36,640 nt of DNA. Source: Leptolyngbyaceae cyanobacterium HOT.MB2.61 (GTDB lineage Bacteria > Cyanobacteriota > Cyanobacteriia > Leptolyngbyales > Leptolyngbyaceae). Each line of letters starts with the position of its first letter. The stretch's first letter is position 1. A program made the position numbers and the translations under genes. The stretch spans positions 1 to 36,640 of the forward strand of contig JAIMBL010000021.1 in assembly GCA_023511615.1 (NCBI GenBank), given 5' to 3'. Positions 26,034 through 35,919 of this stretch are shown in pieces. The notes below the pieces were generated by a model that saw only the letters and a program-made list of their open reading frames with translations, was not told where the DNA came from and did no database searches.

Positions 26034-26555
26034 TTAGAAATACACATCCATCTGGGATCGGCCCGTGGTTTTAAGCCAGTTTTGGGCTTCAATGTAGTTG
26101 TTAGGGGCAAGGCGAATCGCCCGTTTCCAGTAATCGGCGGCTTTGTCGTAGTAGGCGTCCGCTTCATCATCGTTGCCCGCTTCTTTTTCGCGCTCGCCCA
26201 GGTAGTGGAAAATCACGGCAATGTTGTTAAGGGCCTGGGGCATGCGAGGGTTCAAATCCAGCGCCTGATGGTAGTAATCCAGGGCGGTGTCATGTTCCCC
26301 ATTGCTGGCATGGATAAGCCCAATGTTGTAGAGAATGTAGCTACGGTCATAGGGATCTTCTTCCAACTTTAGCGCTTCGTTGTAATTTTCCAGCGCTTCA
26401 GCGTATTCCCCATCTGCCTGAGCGGCCATTCCATCCCGGTAATAGGCAAAAGCTTCCTTTGCCTTCTTATTGGCAGGCAGGAACTTTAGAATCATATCCG
26501 CCATGACGGTGAAGCTCTTATCGATGAAGTTGTCGTTGCGTTGTGTTCTTGGCAT
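26034..26555 (-). CDS. ycf3: Photosystem I assembly protein Ycf3
   Basis: This 173-aa TPR protein is the peripheral thylakoid factor needed for photosystem I assembly, where it chaperones PsaA/PsaB or their partner subunits. It begins [20 protein letters not shown], the conserved Ycf3 N-terminus. Three TPR motifs follow ([60 protein letters not shown], with the usual elongated third repeat), and the protein ends GRSQMDVYF. The length matches the family (about 170-173). It is the first gene of a ycf3-gatC-zinc-ribbon-protein run on the minus strand. Confidence 0.97.
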
Positions 26556-28356: not shown

Positions 28357-28610
28357 GTGAACCCGTTTCAGTAAACCCGAAGTAGACTCCTGGGGCAGGT
28401 TTGCCAGGGCGGATTCAACCCCATCCCGTGCCGCCAGAAGGTCAAGGATCTGTTCGGCTGAGGGCCGGGGGGTCGCCTACTCCAGATCGGCAAGTCTGGC
28501 ATCATAGGTTGGCAGGTCGGCATCTAACCTGGAGGAATTCATGAGGGCGGTGCATTTGTGAGCCGAGTCATGGGGGTCTTAGGATGCCTTGCATTTTGGA
28601 GGGAATCGGT

Positions 28611-31600
28611 GTGGCGTTGGTTTCTCTGGTCATCACGGTTTATAACCGGGAACAGTATCTGGGCGCAGCGATTGAAAGTGTGCTGGCTCAAACCTATTCA
28701 GATTTTGAACTGATTGTTTGGGATGATGGCTCAACTGATCGCTCCCTGGAGATTGCGCAGGAGTATGCCTGCCGCGATCGCCGGGTGCGGGTGGTTGCTG
28801 CTCCCCATGCGGGAAGGGTGCCTGCTCTGCAGGCAGCGATCGCTAAAACTACGGGTATTTATTTGGGCTGGGTAGACAGTGATGACCTGCTGGACCCCAA
28901 AGCTCTGGAAGAAACGGTGGCGATTCTCAATGCCCACCAGAGCGTGGGGATGGTTTATACCGACTACCTGGATATGGATGAGTCCGGGCAGATGCTCGGC
29001 TATGGCTACCGCTGTCAGATTCCCTATTCCAGAGAACGCTTGCTACTGGATTTCATGACCTTCCACTTTCGTCTAATCCGGCGATCAGTGTTTGATCGAG
29101 TGGGGGGAATTGATGATTCTCTGGACTACGTTGAGGATTACGACCTCTGCCTGCGCCTGTCCGAAGTGACCGAGGTGCGCCACATCCGCAAGCCGCTCTA
29201 CTACTACCGTCACCATGAAGGCAGTGCTTCTCAGCAGTGGCGGATTGAACAGGTGTTGCGATCGCGAGCCATTATCCGTAAAGCCCTGAAGCGACGGGGC
29301 CTGTCTGATCAGTGGGAAATTCACATCCAGTTCCCGGAGGGACGCTTCGTGTTGCGCCGGAAGCAGAAGGCAGGAATGCGCCCGTTTCCTACTCGTCCCA
29401 CAGCAATGGAGGTGAGAAAAAAGTGGGAAGCCTCTCTGGTTCCCCTGTTCAGGGAAGGATGGAGGCAACCGCTTTCCCCGACTTCCTGCATTGCCCCCCT
29501 CTTGCTGGCTCTACCCCTTGCTACCCTCAGCCCAGTTGGGATGGCCCGTGCCCAATCCATCACGCCCACCCCCAATGGCAGCACCATTATTACCCCCAGT
29601 GGCGATCGCTTCGATATCACCGGCGGCACCCAGGCTGGAGCCAACCTGTTCCACAGCTTTCAGCGGTTTGGGCTGGATGCTGGGCAAATCGCCAATTTCC
29701 TCTCCAATCCCTCCATCCAGAACATTTTGGGACGGGTCACAGGGGGAGACGCTTCGATTATCAACGGGCTGGTTCAGGTTACAGGCAGTAATGCCAACCT
29801 GTACTTAATGAACCCGGCGGGGGTTGTTTTTGGCCCCAATGCTCGATTGAACGTGCCAGGGTCGTTTACAGCCGCCACCGCCAATGGGATTGGGTTTGGC
29901 TGTGCGGGGCCGGGGGTTGGCTGCGCAGGCTGGTTCAACGCGGTGGGAAGCAATGACTACGCCGCCCTGGTTGGCACTCCTGGCACCTTTGCCTTCACAA
30001 TGGCGCAACCGGGGGCGATCGTCAATGCTGGAAATCTGGCAGTTGGGCCGGAGCGATCGCTCATTCTCTTAGGCGGCACCATCCTGAACACCGGGCAACT
30101 TTCTGCACCGGGCGGACAGGTGACACTCGCTGCGATTCCAGGCAGCAACTTGGTGCGCTTGAGCCAGCAAGACAATCTCCTGAACCTGGAATTCATCCCC
30201 ACCTCCTCTCCCTCTTTCTCTTCCTCTACTTCCCCTACTCCCCTTCCCTTCACCCCCCTCACCTTGCCCCAACTGCTGACGGGTGGAAATCTGACCAGTG
30301 CAACGGGAGTTACGGTCAACCCGGATGGCACCATTCAATTGAGCGGATCGAGCCTGCGAGTTTCAACCAATCCGGGGACGGCCATCGTTTCCGGCAGCAT
30401 TACCACCTCCAATGCCACCCTTAGCCCCATTCCCGACTCTCCCTTGCCAACATCGCTCCTGGTGAATGTTTTGGGAACCCAGGTGGGGTTAATTGGAGCC
30501 ACCCTCAATGCTTCGGGGTTGACCGGAGGGGGAACTGTTCGGATTGGCGGAGACTACCAGGGGCGCGGCCCGCTTCCCAATGCACAGAGTACCTTTGTAG
30601 ACGCCAGTTCTACCATCAATGCGGATAGCTTGCGGAATGGAAATGGGGGCCGCGTCATCCTCTGGGCAGACCAGATTACCCGCTTCTATGGCAACATCAG
30701 TGCACGGGGAGGAGCCAATTCGGGGGATGGCGGCTTTGTTGAGGTGTCAGGCAAGCAAGATCTGGTCTACCGGGGATTTGCGGATGTTTCTGCGCCTGCG
30801 GGCAATCCCGGTACCCTGTTACTGGACCCGACCAACATCACCATTGTGGCGGGAGCCTATGGCTACGGTACGGGTGACACGGCCTTACCCGACATTTTCA
30901 GCACTGATTTTCCCGGTGCTTCCATCACCGTTGCTGAAGGAGCGTTAGAAGGATTTGGCTACAGCAATATCATCCTGGAAGCGACGAATGACATCACAGT
31001 CGCGTCCCTGGCGGATGGGGTGCTGAACCTGTTTAACTCCACCTCCGTTACCTTTAGAGCTGATGCTGATGGAGATGGGGCGGGTTCGTTCATTATGGGG
31101 GCCGGATACAGTCTGGTTGCCAATGGTCAGAATGTGACCATCTCTGGAGCTAATTTGATCCTGGGGGACATTGACACCTCCAGCACAGGGTTTGGCAACA
31201 GTGGGGATGTGAATTTGAATGCAGCGGGCAATATCACGGTTGGCAACATTAACACCAGCAGTTTTACCGGATTGGGGTACCGGGCTGGCAATGTGGATAT
31301 TACCAGTACCAGTGGGGCGATCGCCACGGGCAATATCTTTACCAACAGCGATGTCCAGTCGGGAGCTGTAACACTCTCTGCCCCTGGCAGCAATAGTGAT
31401 GTGACTTTTGGCAGCATCAGTGCTGTTGGAACTGGCGCTGGTTCAGCCGGGGCACCCGTATCGATTACGGCAGGAAGGTTTGTGCGAGGAACTGGCTTCA
31501 TCGATGGTGCCACTACCCCAACCATTGACAGTAGCGGACAGGCAATTTCTGGCTCAATCCAGATTGAGCATGGTGGTGGATTGGCCGATGTCCAGTTTGT

Positions 31601-33341
31601 GGTCGGAGATGCTGCCATTAATGGAACAGCGGGACGATTGGCCACTGGAACGGCTGCTGCCCCCAGCACTATTGGACCTGTCCGATCCTTCCCTGGCAGT
31701 TTCTCAACTACAGGGATTGATATCATTACAACAACTCCCCCACCTCCTCCACCACCCATTGATCCCGGTGATAAGGGCGGAAATGGTAAGCGGGGGAGAC
31801 CAGACATTCCACTGGATGACCAGGAAGAGATTTCCTCCGACCTTGCCGATACATCTGAAGAAGACCTGTCCCTGGACGTACCGGATGGAGATGGTCCCTT
31901 TCTGGAGGAACCGGGTGACTCAGATGTAGCCAGTCTGGAAGAGAATGCCAATTTTGAGTTTGAAGAATACTTAGATATTCCAGATGATCTCCCTACATTG
32001 AATGCAGGTGACGCTGAAAACATTCTTGATCGCATCAGAATGGAAACCGGAGTGAAACCTGCCCTCGTCTACGCATCCTTTGTGCCAGTCAGTGTTGCCA
32101 GGGAAAGGGGAAAAAAACCAGTATTTTCTACAAAAACGGCCCAGGCAACCGCCCATTCTGGCAGCAAAACCAAGGCAGAGCCATTTTTACCCAGGCAAAC
32201 AACTGTCAGCAATTCCATTAAGCTGTCCAGCTCTCTAGTAGAGAAAGTTGCCCAGGAAAATCGATCGCAGACACCGCGACAAAAACTTCCCCCCAGTGAC
32301 CAGGATCAGCTCGAACTGGTGGTCGTGACAGCTGAGGGAAAACCGATTCGGAAACTGGTCGCCGGAGCAACCAGAGGCCAGGTACTCAGAGTGGTCCGGC
32401 GCTTTATTAACGAAGTCACCGATCCCCGCAAAGTGCGGACTACCAGTTATTTGAACGCCGCGCAGCAGCTCTATCGCTGGATGGTGGCCCCGATTGAGTC
32501 AGAACTACAGGCGCGAGGAATTGGTAACCTGGCCTACATCTCAGATACGGGCTTGCGCTTTATTCCAATGGTGGCCCTGCACGATGGCAAACAGTTTTTG
32601 GTGGAGAAGTACAGTTTTGGGTTAATGCCCAGCATCAGCCTTACCAATACCCGCTACACCAGCCTCAAGAATGCGACAGTGCTGGCAATGGGAGCTTCGG
32701 AGTTTGCCGACCAGCCACCTCTGCCTGCGGTACCGACGGAACTGAAGGTGATTACCAAGGACCTCTGGCGGGGGACTTCCTTCCTCAACCAGGACTTTAC
32801 CCTGGCCAACCTGAAAGCCCAGCGAACCGAAGAGCCCTATCAAATCATTCACCTGGCAACCCATGGGGAGTTTCAGCCCGGTGCCCTGAGCAACTCCTAC
32901 ATCCAGCTTTGGGACACACGCTTGCAACTTGACCAGCTCCGTCAGTTGGGCTGGAGCAATCCACCAGTCGAGCTACTGGTCCTGAGTGCCTGCCGTACTG
33001 CACTGGGCAGCGACGATGCTGAACTCGGCTTTGCTGGATTTGCGGTGCAGGCTGGGGTTAAAACGGCTCTGGCCAGCCTCTGGAGTGTTAGCGATGAGGG
33101 TACCCTGGCGCTAATGACCGAGTTTTATCGCCAACTGCAGACGGCTCCTATCAAAGCGGAAGCTCTCAGGCGGGCACAGATTGCCATGCTGAAGGGGGAA
33201 GTGCAAATCGATGGTGATCAACTCCGTGGCTCACGGGGAGGAGAACTGGTACTGCCGGCTACTTTAGCAGTAGGGGGTAAGCGCACGTTAAATCACCCCT
33301 ATTACTGGGCGTCGTTTACCTTGATTGGCAGTCCCTGGTAA
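28611..33341 (+). CDS. GT2 glycosyltransferase-TPS haemagglutinin-CHAT protease fusion
   Basis: This 1,576-aa frame is counted from GTG 28611, which has GGAGGGAA 7 bp ahead; ATG 28584 is an alternative. Residues 1 to about 250 are a GT-A fold GT2 domain: SLVITVYNRE, WDDGSTD (DDGS 38-41), VDSDD (89-92), VEDYDLCLR. At Met266 begins what looks like a second protein, with a basic segment, a hydrophobic stretch about 292-311 and a MARAQ cleavage-like site. A filamentous haemagglutinin/TPS domain (about 316-436, with NLYLMNPAGVVFG) and a beta-helix-like Gly/Asn/Thr-rich region reach about 1035. A PPPPPPP linker and an acidic stretch follow. The C-terminus (about 1230-1576) is a CHAT domain, a caspase-like protease with His1418 (HLATHGEF) and Cys1461 (LSACRTALG). 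TPS-CHAT proteins are common in cyanobacteria; the GT2 head is the odd part. No TpsB pore gene is nearby. Confidence 0.88.
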   Translation: MALVSLVITVYNREQYLGAAIESVLAQTYSDFELIVWDDGSTDRSLEIAQEYACRDRRVRVVAAPHAGRVPALQAAIAKTTGIYLGWVDSDDLLDPKALEETVAILNAHQSVGMVYTDYLDMDESGQMLGYGYRCQIPYSRERLLLDFMTFHFRLIRRSVFDRVGGIDDSLDYVEDYDLCLRLSEVTEVRHIRKPLYYYRHHEGSASQQWRIEQVLRSRAIIRKALKRRGLSDQWEIHIQFPEGRFVLRRKQKAGMRPFPTRPTAMEVRKKWEASLVPLFREGWRQPLSPTSCIAPLLLALPLATLSPVGMARAQSITPTPNGSTIITPSGDRFDITGGTQAGANLFHSFQRFGLDAGQIANFLSNPSIQNILGRVTGGDASIINGLVQVTGSNANLYLMNPAGVVFGPNARLNVPGSFTAATANGIGFGCAGPGVGCAGWFNAVGSNDYAALVGTPGTFAFTMAQPGAIVNAGNLAVGPERSLILLGGTILNTGQLSAPGGQVTLAAIPGSNLVRLSQQDNLLNLEFIPTSSPSFSSSTSPTPLPFTPLTLPQLLTGGNLTSATGVTVNPDGTIQLSGSSLRVSTNPGTAIVSGSITTSNATLSPIPDSPLPTSLLVNVLGTQVGLIGATLNASGLTGGGTVRIGGDYQGRGPLPNAQSTFVDASSTINADSLRNGNGGRVILWADQITRFYGNISARGGANSGDGGFVEVSGKQDLVYRGFADVSAPAGNPGTLLLDPTNITIVAGAYGYGTGDTALPDIFSTDFPGASITVAEGALEGFGYSNIILEATNDITVASLADGVLNLFNSTSVTFRADADGDGAGSFIMGAGYSLVANGQNVTISGANLILGDIDTSSTGFGNSGDVNLNAAGNITVGNINTSSFTGLGYRAGNVDITSTSGAIATGNIFTNSDVQSGAVTLSAPGSNSDVTFGSISAVGTGAGSAGAPVSITAGRFVRGTGFIDGATTPTIDSSGQAISGSIQIEHGGGLADVQFVVGDAAINGTAGRLATGTAAAPSTIGPVRSFPGSFSTTGIDIITTTPPPPPPPIDPGDKGGNGKRGRPDIPLDDQEEISSDLADTSEEDLSLDVPDGDGPFLEEPGDSDVASLEENANFEFEEYLDIPDDLPTLNAGDAENILDRIRMETGVKPALVYASFVPVSVARERGKKPVFSTKTAQATAHSGSKTKAEPFLPRQTTVSNSIKLSSSLVEKVAQENRSQTPRQKLPPSDQDQLELVVVTAEGKPIRKLVAGATRGQVLRVVRRFINEVTDPRKVRTTSYLNAAQQLYRWMVAPIESELQARGIGNLAYISDTGLRFIPMVALHDGKQFLVEKYSFGLMPSISLTNTRYTSLKNATVLAMGASEFADQPPLPAVPTELKVITKDLWRGTSFLNQDFTLANLKAQRTEEPYQIIHLATHGEFQPGALSNSYIQLWDTRLQLDQLRQLGWSNPPVELLVLSACRTALGSDDAELGFAGFAVQAGVKTALASLWSVSDEGTLALMTEFYRQLQTAPIKAEALRRAQIAMLKGEVQIDGDQLRGSRGGELVLPATLAVGGKRTLNHPYYWASFTLIGSPW

Positions 33342-33516: not shown

Positions 33517-35919
33517 TTACTTAAATGGCACAAAACCGTAGCCTGTCGGCGATCGCAAATCCGGTTGAACTCTGACCAGCACGCCAATTTCAGGAACAAG
33601 CTGGCGTTCACCGGAGGGCAGAAACTGAATCGATCCACTGGCTCCCTGCACGGAAAAATCGGGGCTCCTGAGGATGTCTTTCAACCCCTCGCGAGTCTGG
33701 CTTTGCCGGAGGGCGGTGGCAATTGTCCATACCGCGTCATAGGACATGGCTGTGCGCCAGTTCACTTTACCCCCCCAGCGCTGGATAGCAAGGTGAGGAA
33801 AGGGATTCTCCGTTAACACAGCAGGATGCCAGGGAACCACTAAGGTCAAACCGTTGACAGCAGCTTTCCCGGACAGGGTTTCAGCCGTATAGGGAGTTGG
33901 GCTGCCAAACAGGGGAAGCCTGCCCTGATTAGCCTGGGCGATTTCTACCACTTTATGAACCCGATCCACGTGGGGAGCCAGCAGCAAAGTGTTAGCTCCA
34001 CGGCTCATGATTTGAGCGATCGCGGCATGGGGTTCAAAATTGAGATCGGAAAAGTCACAATTGACGTTGACAAAGGTGATTTTCTTCTCCAGTAGAGCAG
34101 TTGTGAATTGGTTTCGAAAAGACTCATTATCTGGAGCAGCCTCATCTGAACAGATAGCCACTTTCGCTTGCGGAACGGTTTGGCGAATGTACTCTGCCAG
34201 TTTATCGGCAACATACCAGATGCTGGGAACCATGCGAAAAATATACTTGCCGCTGGAGGAGAGCTTGTCAGAAAAACTGGTGGGGGTAATCATGGGTAAG
34301 CCGCCCTGATTGTAAACAGGAGCCGCTGCCACAGAAGCATCACTGGCGTTGTGCCCAATTACCGCTAAGATACGCGGGGCTTTGACAAAGGTGGCAGCAA
34401 GGCGTTTGGCAACTTCAGGTTGGTTCTCGTCATTGGCAACGATGACTTTTAACGGTTTTCCCTGAATGCCACCCCTGAGATTGATTTCATCCTGGGCCTG
34501 AGCGATACCGCGCAACATTTCCTGGGCCACATTCAGATTGCTGCCAATGGGAACTACCACTGCCACTTTAAAGGCGGGGCGATCGCCAATTCGAGCATTG
34601 TTGAGGTAAATCACCGTTTCTGGATCATTGCGATTTTGGCGCAGGGAATTTTCAAATTTGCTGACGGCTTGCGGGTAGTCTTTCCACCCGAATGCCTGCA
34701 CACCCGCAATTTTGTCTGGTGTCTGGACAGATGGAATCAACATCTTTTCTCCCTGACTGAGGCGGTTACGAAACTGAATCGTATCTACCGTAAATGAAGC
34801 ACTGATTGCGGCGATCGCGGCACCCGCTCCAGCCAGAGCCATTTTTCGCCAATTTGCAGGGCGGGGATATTTCAGCTCAGGTGCTAATGGATTTTGAACA
34901 ATCACTGGCAGCCAGGAAGCACAGGGAAACTCCTGCTCCATGTCTTTCCTCAACCGCAATCGAGCAATTTGAACCGCGGTATAAAACGGTTCTCCTCGCG
35001 CAAAGGTTTCCAGAAAATAGCGGGCAAATCGCTGGGCAACTACATCGGGAATCGGTTCCCGCATCACAATCATGTAGGGAATCTTTAAATCAGTCAGGTC
35101 GCGAGTCAGCCCCAGTCCATCGCAGGAGTTAAAAATGGCCAGTTGCAAGCCACGGGCGATCGCCCGTCGCAAGGCATCTTTCAGTTCATCCAGGGTCAGG
35201 CTTTCCTGAGCGTTAATGTAGATTCGTCCCTGTTCTCCCCAGGTTTCACTGTGTCCGGCAAAGAAGAGGATATCCCAGGGCTGCTTCCAGAGATGGTCAT
35301 CAATCTGGTGGCGATCAGGTTCCACCAGAAATGTCACTGCAGCTCTCGGTAGCGCTTCCAACAACTGGCGGTCTGCCTGGATATTGAGGTCAGCGTTGTT
35401 TCCTAAAATTGCCAGAATCTTGACCGGGCTTCTGAGCTGCTTAGAGTAAGGTTCTGTTTCAGCACACAGAGTAATTTCAGCCTGGGGATAGCATTCTTGA
35501 AAAAAGCTCCACAAATGCCAGGGAAATCGCCATAATTGAGAATTTTGAGTTTGCAAAATGAACCGTGCTGGTTCAGATGCACCGATCGCTCTGAGTAATT
35601 TTCGCTCCAAACTGCGCACCGCTGGCTGATTCAACCACTCGTTTAAACCCGCCTCCAGCACTCTCGCCGCAGTTTCGCATTCTTCTACTTTAGAAACATT
35701 CGTGACCTGAGAGGGTGGAACAGTAATGCGTTGAATAACTCCCAGGCGGCGATAAATATTTTGCCACTGGTAGTAATATTTATGGATTTGGGGCGCAGGC
35801 GGAAACTTTCCCCGCACTTCCCGGTACTGGGATCGAGTGGTTTCCCAGATTCGAATGGTGACCGGAAACCCCTGTTCAAAGCTACCTTCTTCAATGTTGA
35901 AGACAACCCGTTTAACCAT
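33517..35919 (-). CDS. CHAT protease-transmembrane-periplasmic-binding receptor
   Basis: This 800-aa protein joins three parts. Residues about 85-345 are a CHAT caspase-like domain with a plausible catalytic dyad: His223 in LFFAGHSETWGE and Cys266 in AIFNSCDGLGL. Residues about 359-377 (MALAGAGAAIAAISASF) form the only membrane helix, after a basic NWRKM, which would place CHAT in the cytoplasm. A TPR-like pair (about 403-440, DYPQAVSKFENSL) comes next. Residues about 449-800 are a type-1 periplasmic ligand-binding fold, LivJ-like (FKVAVVVPIGSNLNVAQEMLRG; ILAVIGHNASDASVAAAPVY; MITPTSFSDKL), as in amino-acid binding proteins and receptors. Ligand binding outside could therefore control a protease inside. 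It is 25 bp downstream of the small membrane gene and convergent with the other CHAT gene across 175 bp. Confidence 0.9.
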   Translation of the reverse strand: MVKRVVFNIEEGSFEQGFPVTIRIWETTRSQYREVRGKFPPAPQIHKYYYQWQNIYRRLGVIQRITVPPSQVTNVSKVEECETAARVLEAGLNEWLNQPAVRSLERKLLRAIGASEPARFILQTQNSQLWRFPWHLWSFFQECYPQAEITLCAETEPYSKQLRSPVKILAILGNNADLNIQADRQLLEALPRAAVTFLVEPDRHQIDDHLWKQPWDILFFAGHSETWGEQGRIYINAQESLTLDELKDALRRAIARGLQLAIFNSCDGLGLTRDLTDLKIPYMIVMREPIPDVVAQRFARYFLETFARGEPFYTAVQIARLRLRKDMEQEFPCASWLPVIVQNPLAPELKYPRPANWRKMALAGAGAAIAAISASFTVDTIQFRNRLSQGEKMLIPSVQTPDKIAGVQAFGWKDYPQAVSKFENSLRQNRNDPETVIYLNNARIGDRPAFKVAVVVPIGSNLNVAQEMLRGIAQAQDEINLRGGIQGKPLKVIVANDENQPEVAKRLAATFVKAPRILAVIGHNASDASVAAAPVYNQGGLPMITPTSFSDKLSSSGKYIFRMVPSIWYVADKLAEYIRQTVPQAKVAICSDEAAPDNESFRNQFTTALLEKKITFVNVNCDFSDLNFEPHAAIAQIMSRGANTLLLAPHVDRVHKVVEIAQANQGRLPLFGSPTPYTAETLSGKAAVNGLTLVVPWHPAVLTENPFPHLAIQRWGGKVNWRTAMSYDAVWTIATALRQSQTREGLKDILRSPDFSVQGASGSIQFLPSGERQLVPEIGVLVRVQPDLRSPTGYGFVPFK

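Follow-up and report, generated by a model that had tools for sequence, protein, structure and literature searches.

A glycosyltransferase domain kept in frame ahead of a predicted internal signal peptide in cyanobacterial two-partner secretion CHAT proteins

A gene of the Leptolyngbyaceae cyanobacterium HOT.MB2.61 raises the question why a sugar-transferring enzyme should be joined to a protein with the features of a secreted one. The gene lies on contig JAIMBL010000021.1 in a stretch of 36,640 nucleotides, which is called the window here; the DNA is cyanobacterial, as it encodes Ycf3 at 26034-26555. A family 2 glycosyltransferase (GT2) part and a part with a two-partner secretion (TPS) domain and a CHAT protease domain share a single open reading frame (28584-33341, 1585 codons), as described in an earlier note on this DNA. 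The encoded protein matched the Pfam families Glycos_transf_2 (PF00535; residues 14-173, 2.9e-32, 112.4 bits compared to a cut-off of 23.3), TPS (PF05860; residues 330-541, 2.2e-41, 142.9 bits) and CHAT (PF12770; residues 1292-1583, 2.2e-71, 241.1 bits). All motifs named in the note were located, namely WDDGSTD (28719-28739), DSDD (within 28869-28886) and EDYDLCLR (29133-29156) in the GT2 part and HLATHG (32850-32867) and LSACR (32982-32996) in the CHAT part. By its score above the curated threshold and its DDGS and DxD-type motifs the first domain belongs to the GT2 family, and by its His/Cys dyad the last one is a CHAT peptidase. The TPS domain directly follows a predicted signal peptide, as in TpsA proteins, although this signal is internal and not N-terminal. 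Two explanations had been offered: either the loss of a stop codon joined the frames, with initiation at the internal codon 29406 still giving two separate proteins, or the fused protein has a real role, e.g., glycosylation of its own exported half.

The combination of GT2, haemagglutinin N-terminal (TPS) and CHAT domains was sought in other cyanobacterial genomes, a check already suggested in the note, using 42 genomes from the family of the window's organism together with 386 genomes sampled across the phylum. GT2 and TPS shared a reading frame in 36 genes, the window gene included. Their hosts are 28 genomes, which represent 15 genera from 2 families. CHAT was also in frame in 33 of these genes; two of the others end at a contig end (L127, L149) and the third has CHAT in another frame (L120). 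The genome of the window itself carries a second GT2-TPS-CHAT frame (contig C380, 1658 codons), the GT2 of which is 63% identical. Since four host genomes consist of a single contig (G012, G016, G025, G390), an assembly error is disfavoured. In addition to the 36 genes, two broken or split loci were found, one in three frames (L116) and one in which two overlapping frames encode GT2 and TPS separately (L140). CHAT is likewise in another frame in L140, and this locus may be decaying or misread. A scan of genome contigs with the full-length protein yielded a single distant GT2 relative.

The position of the GT2 start codon was kept in 27 of the 36 fusions (ATG at -2), and the catalytic motifs of GT2, including WDDGS and DSDD, were invariant or nearly so among the relatives; the catalytic residues of CHAT were conserved as well. 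Pairwise ratios of nonsynonymous to synonymous substitution rates (dN/dS) were about 0.1 for GT2 in most close pairs, similar to TPS, and mostly below 0.3 for the linker and signal segment, which is a short region. Higher linker values were obtained in a few pairs (L145-L150, L145-L147, L147-L150) from about 25 codons. GT2 is under strong purifying selection, and the fusion is a conserved protein design rather than the result of a lost stop codon. Trees built for GT2 and for TPS recovered the same small clades, and therefore the two parts have travelled together. The backbones of both trees were poorly resolved and do not distinguish one from several fusion events. In the TPS tree, the unfused L045 pairs with the fused L123, which suggests either loss of GT2 there or recombination.

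With respect to the start codon of the window gene, the first ATG of the frame (28584) has no counterpart among the aligned relatives. GTG 28611, which had also been taken as the start in the note and which adjoins the ATG of the relatives in the alignment, is the most likely start and gives a product of 1576 amino acids. It was preferred because it is preceded by GGAGGG and fits the start of the relatives better. The features of the gene are listed in Table 1; its passenger, taken for a beta-helix in the note, is covered by no Pfam family.

Table 1. Features of the fused gene and its upstream region, in window coordinates.
Feature	Position	Strand	Basis or remark
GGAGGG, Shine-Dalgarno-like motif	28598..28603	+	7 nt ahead of GTG 28611
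Whole fusion, from GT2 through internal signal, TPS and passenger to CHAT	28611..33341	+	open frame; most likely start, beside the ATG of relatives in the alignment
Glycosyltransferase domain of family GT2 (GT-A); motifs WDDGSTD, DSDD, EDYDLCLR	28611..29369	+	Pfam PF00535/PF13641/PF10111
Basic variable linker (predicted N-region of the signal segment), holding the in-frame Met codon 29406	29370..29489	+	sequence, charge
Hydrophobic segment IAPLLLALPLATL	29490..29528	+	sequence
Predicted signal peptidase I motif Ala-Arg-Ala, cut before Gln-Ser-Ile	29544..29552	+	motif type in relatives
TPS secretion domain (filamentous haemagglutinin N-terminal)	29571..30206	+	Pfam PF05860; TIGR01901
Passenger: Gly/Asn-rich stretch, then Pro-rich and acidic linker	30207..32456	+	translation
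Caspase-like protease domain (CHAT); dyad: His of HLATHG, Cys of LSACR	32457..33338	+	Pfam PF12770

Facing the fused gene, a gene on the minus strand (33517..35919) encodes another unusual CHAT protein, with a CHAT-like and a periplasmic-binding/ANF-receptor domain and weak similarity to HetF. PADLOC reported nothing beyond a weak BovA match to CHAT.

The junction between the GT2 and TPS domains was compared among all 36 fusions. The net charge ahead of the hydrophobic run was positive in every one (+2 to +11), and 33 have an AxA-type motif ahead of TPS, 14-27 residues from the start of this run, with Gln or Glu as the next residue. The three junctions lacking this motif (L122, L124, L139) all carry an extra Pro-rich insert. 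In many unfused TPS-CHAT proteins from these genomes, an ordinary short signal peptide occupies the equivalent place. From these features we infer an internal Sec-type signal peptide, which should leave GT2 inside the cell while the TPS-CHAT part is exported; topology, cleavage and TpsB-dependent export are likewise predictions from sequence. As for the export partner, the genome of the window contains four full-length ShlB-type TpsB genes. A TpsB gene adjoins seven fused relatives, on the opposite strand and reading away; for all seven, the closest TpsB is the one encoded on contig C72 in the genome of the window. No TpsB gene was found next to the window gene, nor for most relatives within the stretch examined. 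A cytoplasmic domain before one membrane-crossing segment is the ordinary type II topology of membrane proteins such as ToxR, CadC, and RodZ, and to call the arrangement mechanistically odd, as was done in the note, was an overstatement.

The neighbourhoods of stand-alone members bear on the role of the GT2 subfamily. At 11 of 21 such loci, genes for exporters, injection systems or giant proteins lie within two genes: HlyD or C39-type ATP-binding cassette (ABC) exporters at L164, L172, and L182, injection-system genes at L162 and L163, and giant Ig-like, FG-GAP or CARDB proteins at L169, L170, L174, L176, L181, and L186. As a control, 20 other GT2 genes of the same genome set were analyzed. 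Their neighbours were other glycosyltransferases and methyltransferases, with 0-1 export-linked loci among the 20; no relatives of HlyD, Big or CARDB were found near these control genes, and one general ABC exporter was. GT2-type genes accounted for 2 of 90 neighbours of the stand-alone subfamily, but for 13 of 79 neighbours of the controls. Fisher tests gave p = 0.0002 to 0.001 for the loci, depending on whether 0 or 1 control locus is counted, and p = 0.002 for the GT2-type neighbours, values that are indicative because the classes were picked after the first loci had been seen and the Pfam tally comprises the 25 commonest families. The GT2 tree lists L141 as stand-alone, a provisional class because a contig end truncates this locus.

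In a separate record collection, three plasmid-borne GT2-only genes adjoin genes of 31-35 kb, two of them together with a toxin-secretion ABC transporter, and a FG-GAP gene lies near GT2 in two further records. The three GT2-only proteins (BAY66642.1, BAZ78148.1, BAZ65135.1; L227-L229) belong to the same subfamily (56-61% identity) and were deposited as 'filamentous hemagglutinin outer membrane protein', a name probably carried over from fused database entries.

Some further arrangements of this subfamily were observed. The giant plasmid genes mentioned above (Calothrix, Aulosira) carry annotations such as polymorphic membrane protein and peptidase S8/S53 (L227 1-5078, L228 7820-14741, L229 8128-14735). 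At L162 and L163, the stand-alone GT2 is located inside clusters resembling contractile injection systems (Baseplate_J, phage base V, DUF6519). In L160 (6891-8087) and L093-L096 (one genus, other family; g20, f2), the same GT2 is followed by a signal-like segment and a Pro/Gln-rich tail of about 120 residues; this gene adjoins a rhomboid gene and represents a second kind of GT2-signal fusion. Other members of the same subfamily are fused with sulfotransferase-like domains or with a further GT2 (L109, L113, L114; L086, L087).

HMW1C is known to glycosylate a TPS adhesin in the cytoplasm before export, and the adhesin is thereby stabilised and tethered (PMC3983070). For the fusion, we propose that a single polypeptide is made from the GT2 start and that its N-terminal GT2 domain would fold and remain in the cytoplasm, with the basic and hydrophobic stretch serving as internal Sec signal peptide. 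The tethered GT2 would put sugar on the passenger of its own or a sibling chain before export. Signal peptidase I would then cut at ARA|QSI, whereby GT2 would keep a membrane tail and the TPS-passenger-CHAT exoprotein would be freed, to be taken to the cell surface by a TpsB pore. We give a probability of about one half to this explanation as a whole, i.e., a two-partner secretion exoprotein with a built-in glycosyltransferase partner that takes the HMW1C role in cis. That the exoprotein is the substrate is our hypothesis, based on the conservation of GT2, the export-linked neighbourhoods of its stand-alone relatives and the precedent of HMW1C. A more general proposal is put forward tentatively, as we hold it somewhat less probable than not: the subfamily might be devoted to the cytoplasmic glycosylation of exported giant proteins. 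It would act in trans where its genes neighbour those of type I exporters, injection systems or giant adhesins, and in cis where GT2 forms an enzymatic N-region for the signal peptide of a TPS-CHAT protein. The latter would then be the precursor of a secreted protease that glycosylates itself and is cut in two by signal peptidase.

Several observations weigh against glycosylation of the exported half. The density of N-X-S/T sequons in fused passengers was no higher than in unfused ones and gives no support to N-linked modification; O-linked transfer or extension of a sugar added by another enzyme would be possible. In these genomes TPS-CHAT proteins commonly occur without GT2, and therefore GT2 is not required for such exoproteins. 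In a profile comparison, the solved structure closest to GT2 was the GT domain of chondroitin synthase (residues 375-605), followed by other polysaccharide or unassigned GT2 enzymes, and these nearest structures do not point to one type of acceptor. A single-sequence AlphaFold model of GT2 and the junction reached a pLDDT of 45 and was not used as evidence. Self-glycosylation, the example given in the earlier note, is nevertheless the best-supported functional reading, by indirect evidence and analogy.

Some of the same observations fit the main rival, in which the fusion is a means of making GT2 along with the exoprotein and anchoring it at the membrane, while its target lies elsewhere (other exported proteins, lipid or surface polysaccharide) and signal peptidase parts the products. 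The similarity to chondroitin synthase and the lack of sequon enrichment speak for it, the predicted cut leaves GT2 with a C-terminal membrane tail, and in one genus the same GT2 and signal segment carry just the short Pro/Gln-rich tail. The stand-alone members, however, avoid glycosyltransferase-rich clusters and sit with exported proteins, and we regard this rival as rather unlikely. Two further functions appear improbable, to a similar degree. GT2 might chiefly be a targeting or timing module with catalysis being secondary, an outsized counterpart of the extended signal peptides of FhaB and HMW1; it sits where such an extension would be, and export of FhaB is slowed by its extension (PMC5422565), but a mere spacer would not need the metal-binding and catalytic motifs and the low dN/dS found here. 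Alternatively, the signal segment might stay uncut, which would result in a type II inner-membrane sensor-protease whose GT2 part faces the cytoplasm and whose TPS-CHAT part faces the periplasm. The arrangement equals that of an N-in/C-out single-pass protein and would fit the loci without a nearby TpsB gene, whereas the AxA-Q/E type motif in 33 of 36 fusions and the TpsB genes adjoining seven of them argue for cleavage and export.

The weakest explanation, loss of a stop codon with internal initiation still yielding two proteins, is very improbable, since its few supports (the in-frame ATG at 29406 and the separate frames of L116 and L140, the latter locus with CHAT out of frame too) stand against 36 in-frame loci with a conserved GT2 start and a GT2 and linker that evolve as coding sequence. 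The Met codon itself is in frame, as stated in the note, but as an internal start it is preceded by no Shine-Dalgarno-like motif and has no conserved counterpart among the relatives. In the region that separates GT2 from the hydrophobic segment, ATG is absent in 21 of the 36 fusions, and five lack ATG, GTG, and TTG altogether (L146, L148, L149, L151, L152), and candidate starts in this linker follow a Shine-Dalgarno-like motif in only two of the 36, the window aside. Both a lost stop or sequencing error, on account of the in-frame relatives, and initiation at 29406, given that no start is conserved and none is possible in five loci, were thus rejected.

A literature search of open-licence full texts found no paper describing the fusion, and a search on GalT1 (PDB 5hea) found nothing, so its role was not used as evidence. 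The component domains are already known; the order enzyme, internal signal, exoprotein and its conservation appear to be undescribed in the texts searched. General annotation seems to name the fusion by one half, 'filamentous hemagglutinin'. What the fusion offers is a catalytic enzyme ahead of a predicted internal signal peptide, kept across 15 genera.

One comparison is provided by the unfused cyanobacterial TPS-CHAT proteins, which occur in the same genomes and have the same order TPS-passenger-CHAT, but a short ordinary signal peptide, no GT2, and a longer passenger. From the TPS start to CHAT, the median is 977 residues in fused and 1291 in unfused proteins, and the fused passengers contain more proline (6.1% versus 4.3%). 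BAY66642.1, BAZ78148.1, and BAZ65135.1 share the GT2 subfamily and differ in consisting of GT2 only, beside giant genes. In the Fap1/SRRP pathway (GalT2, Gly), GT-A enzymes also modify an adhesin that is later secreted (PMC5207161), but they are encoded by separate genes of a Gram-positive host and their sugars go onto an already primed glycan. FhaB and HMW1 have extra residues before the Sec signal as well (PMC5422565), whereas here a whole enzyme, about 250 residues long, makes up the extension. The HMW1A/HMW1B/HMW1C and EtpA/EtpB/EtpC systems, like the arrangement proposed here, combine a TPS exoprotein, a dedicated cytoplasmic glycosyltransferase, and a TpsB partner (PMC3983070). HMW1C is a GT41 enzyme with GT-B fold encoded by a separate gene, whereas the cyanobacterial enzyme is a GT2 with GT-A fold that precedes the signal segment and its putative substrate in the same polypeptide. 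It is therefore no member of the HMW1C family, although its genetic link to a TPS exoprotein, in one frame at 36 loci, is of the same kind, and by analogy it may work like HMW1C. If GT2 modifies its own chain, it would be a cis version of the third partner HMW1C and would make protein glycosylation in cyanobacterial secretion directly testable. The stand-alone relatives, which sit near giant adhesins and injection systems, are candidates for a family of protein glycosyltransferases linked to export.
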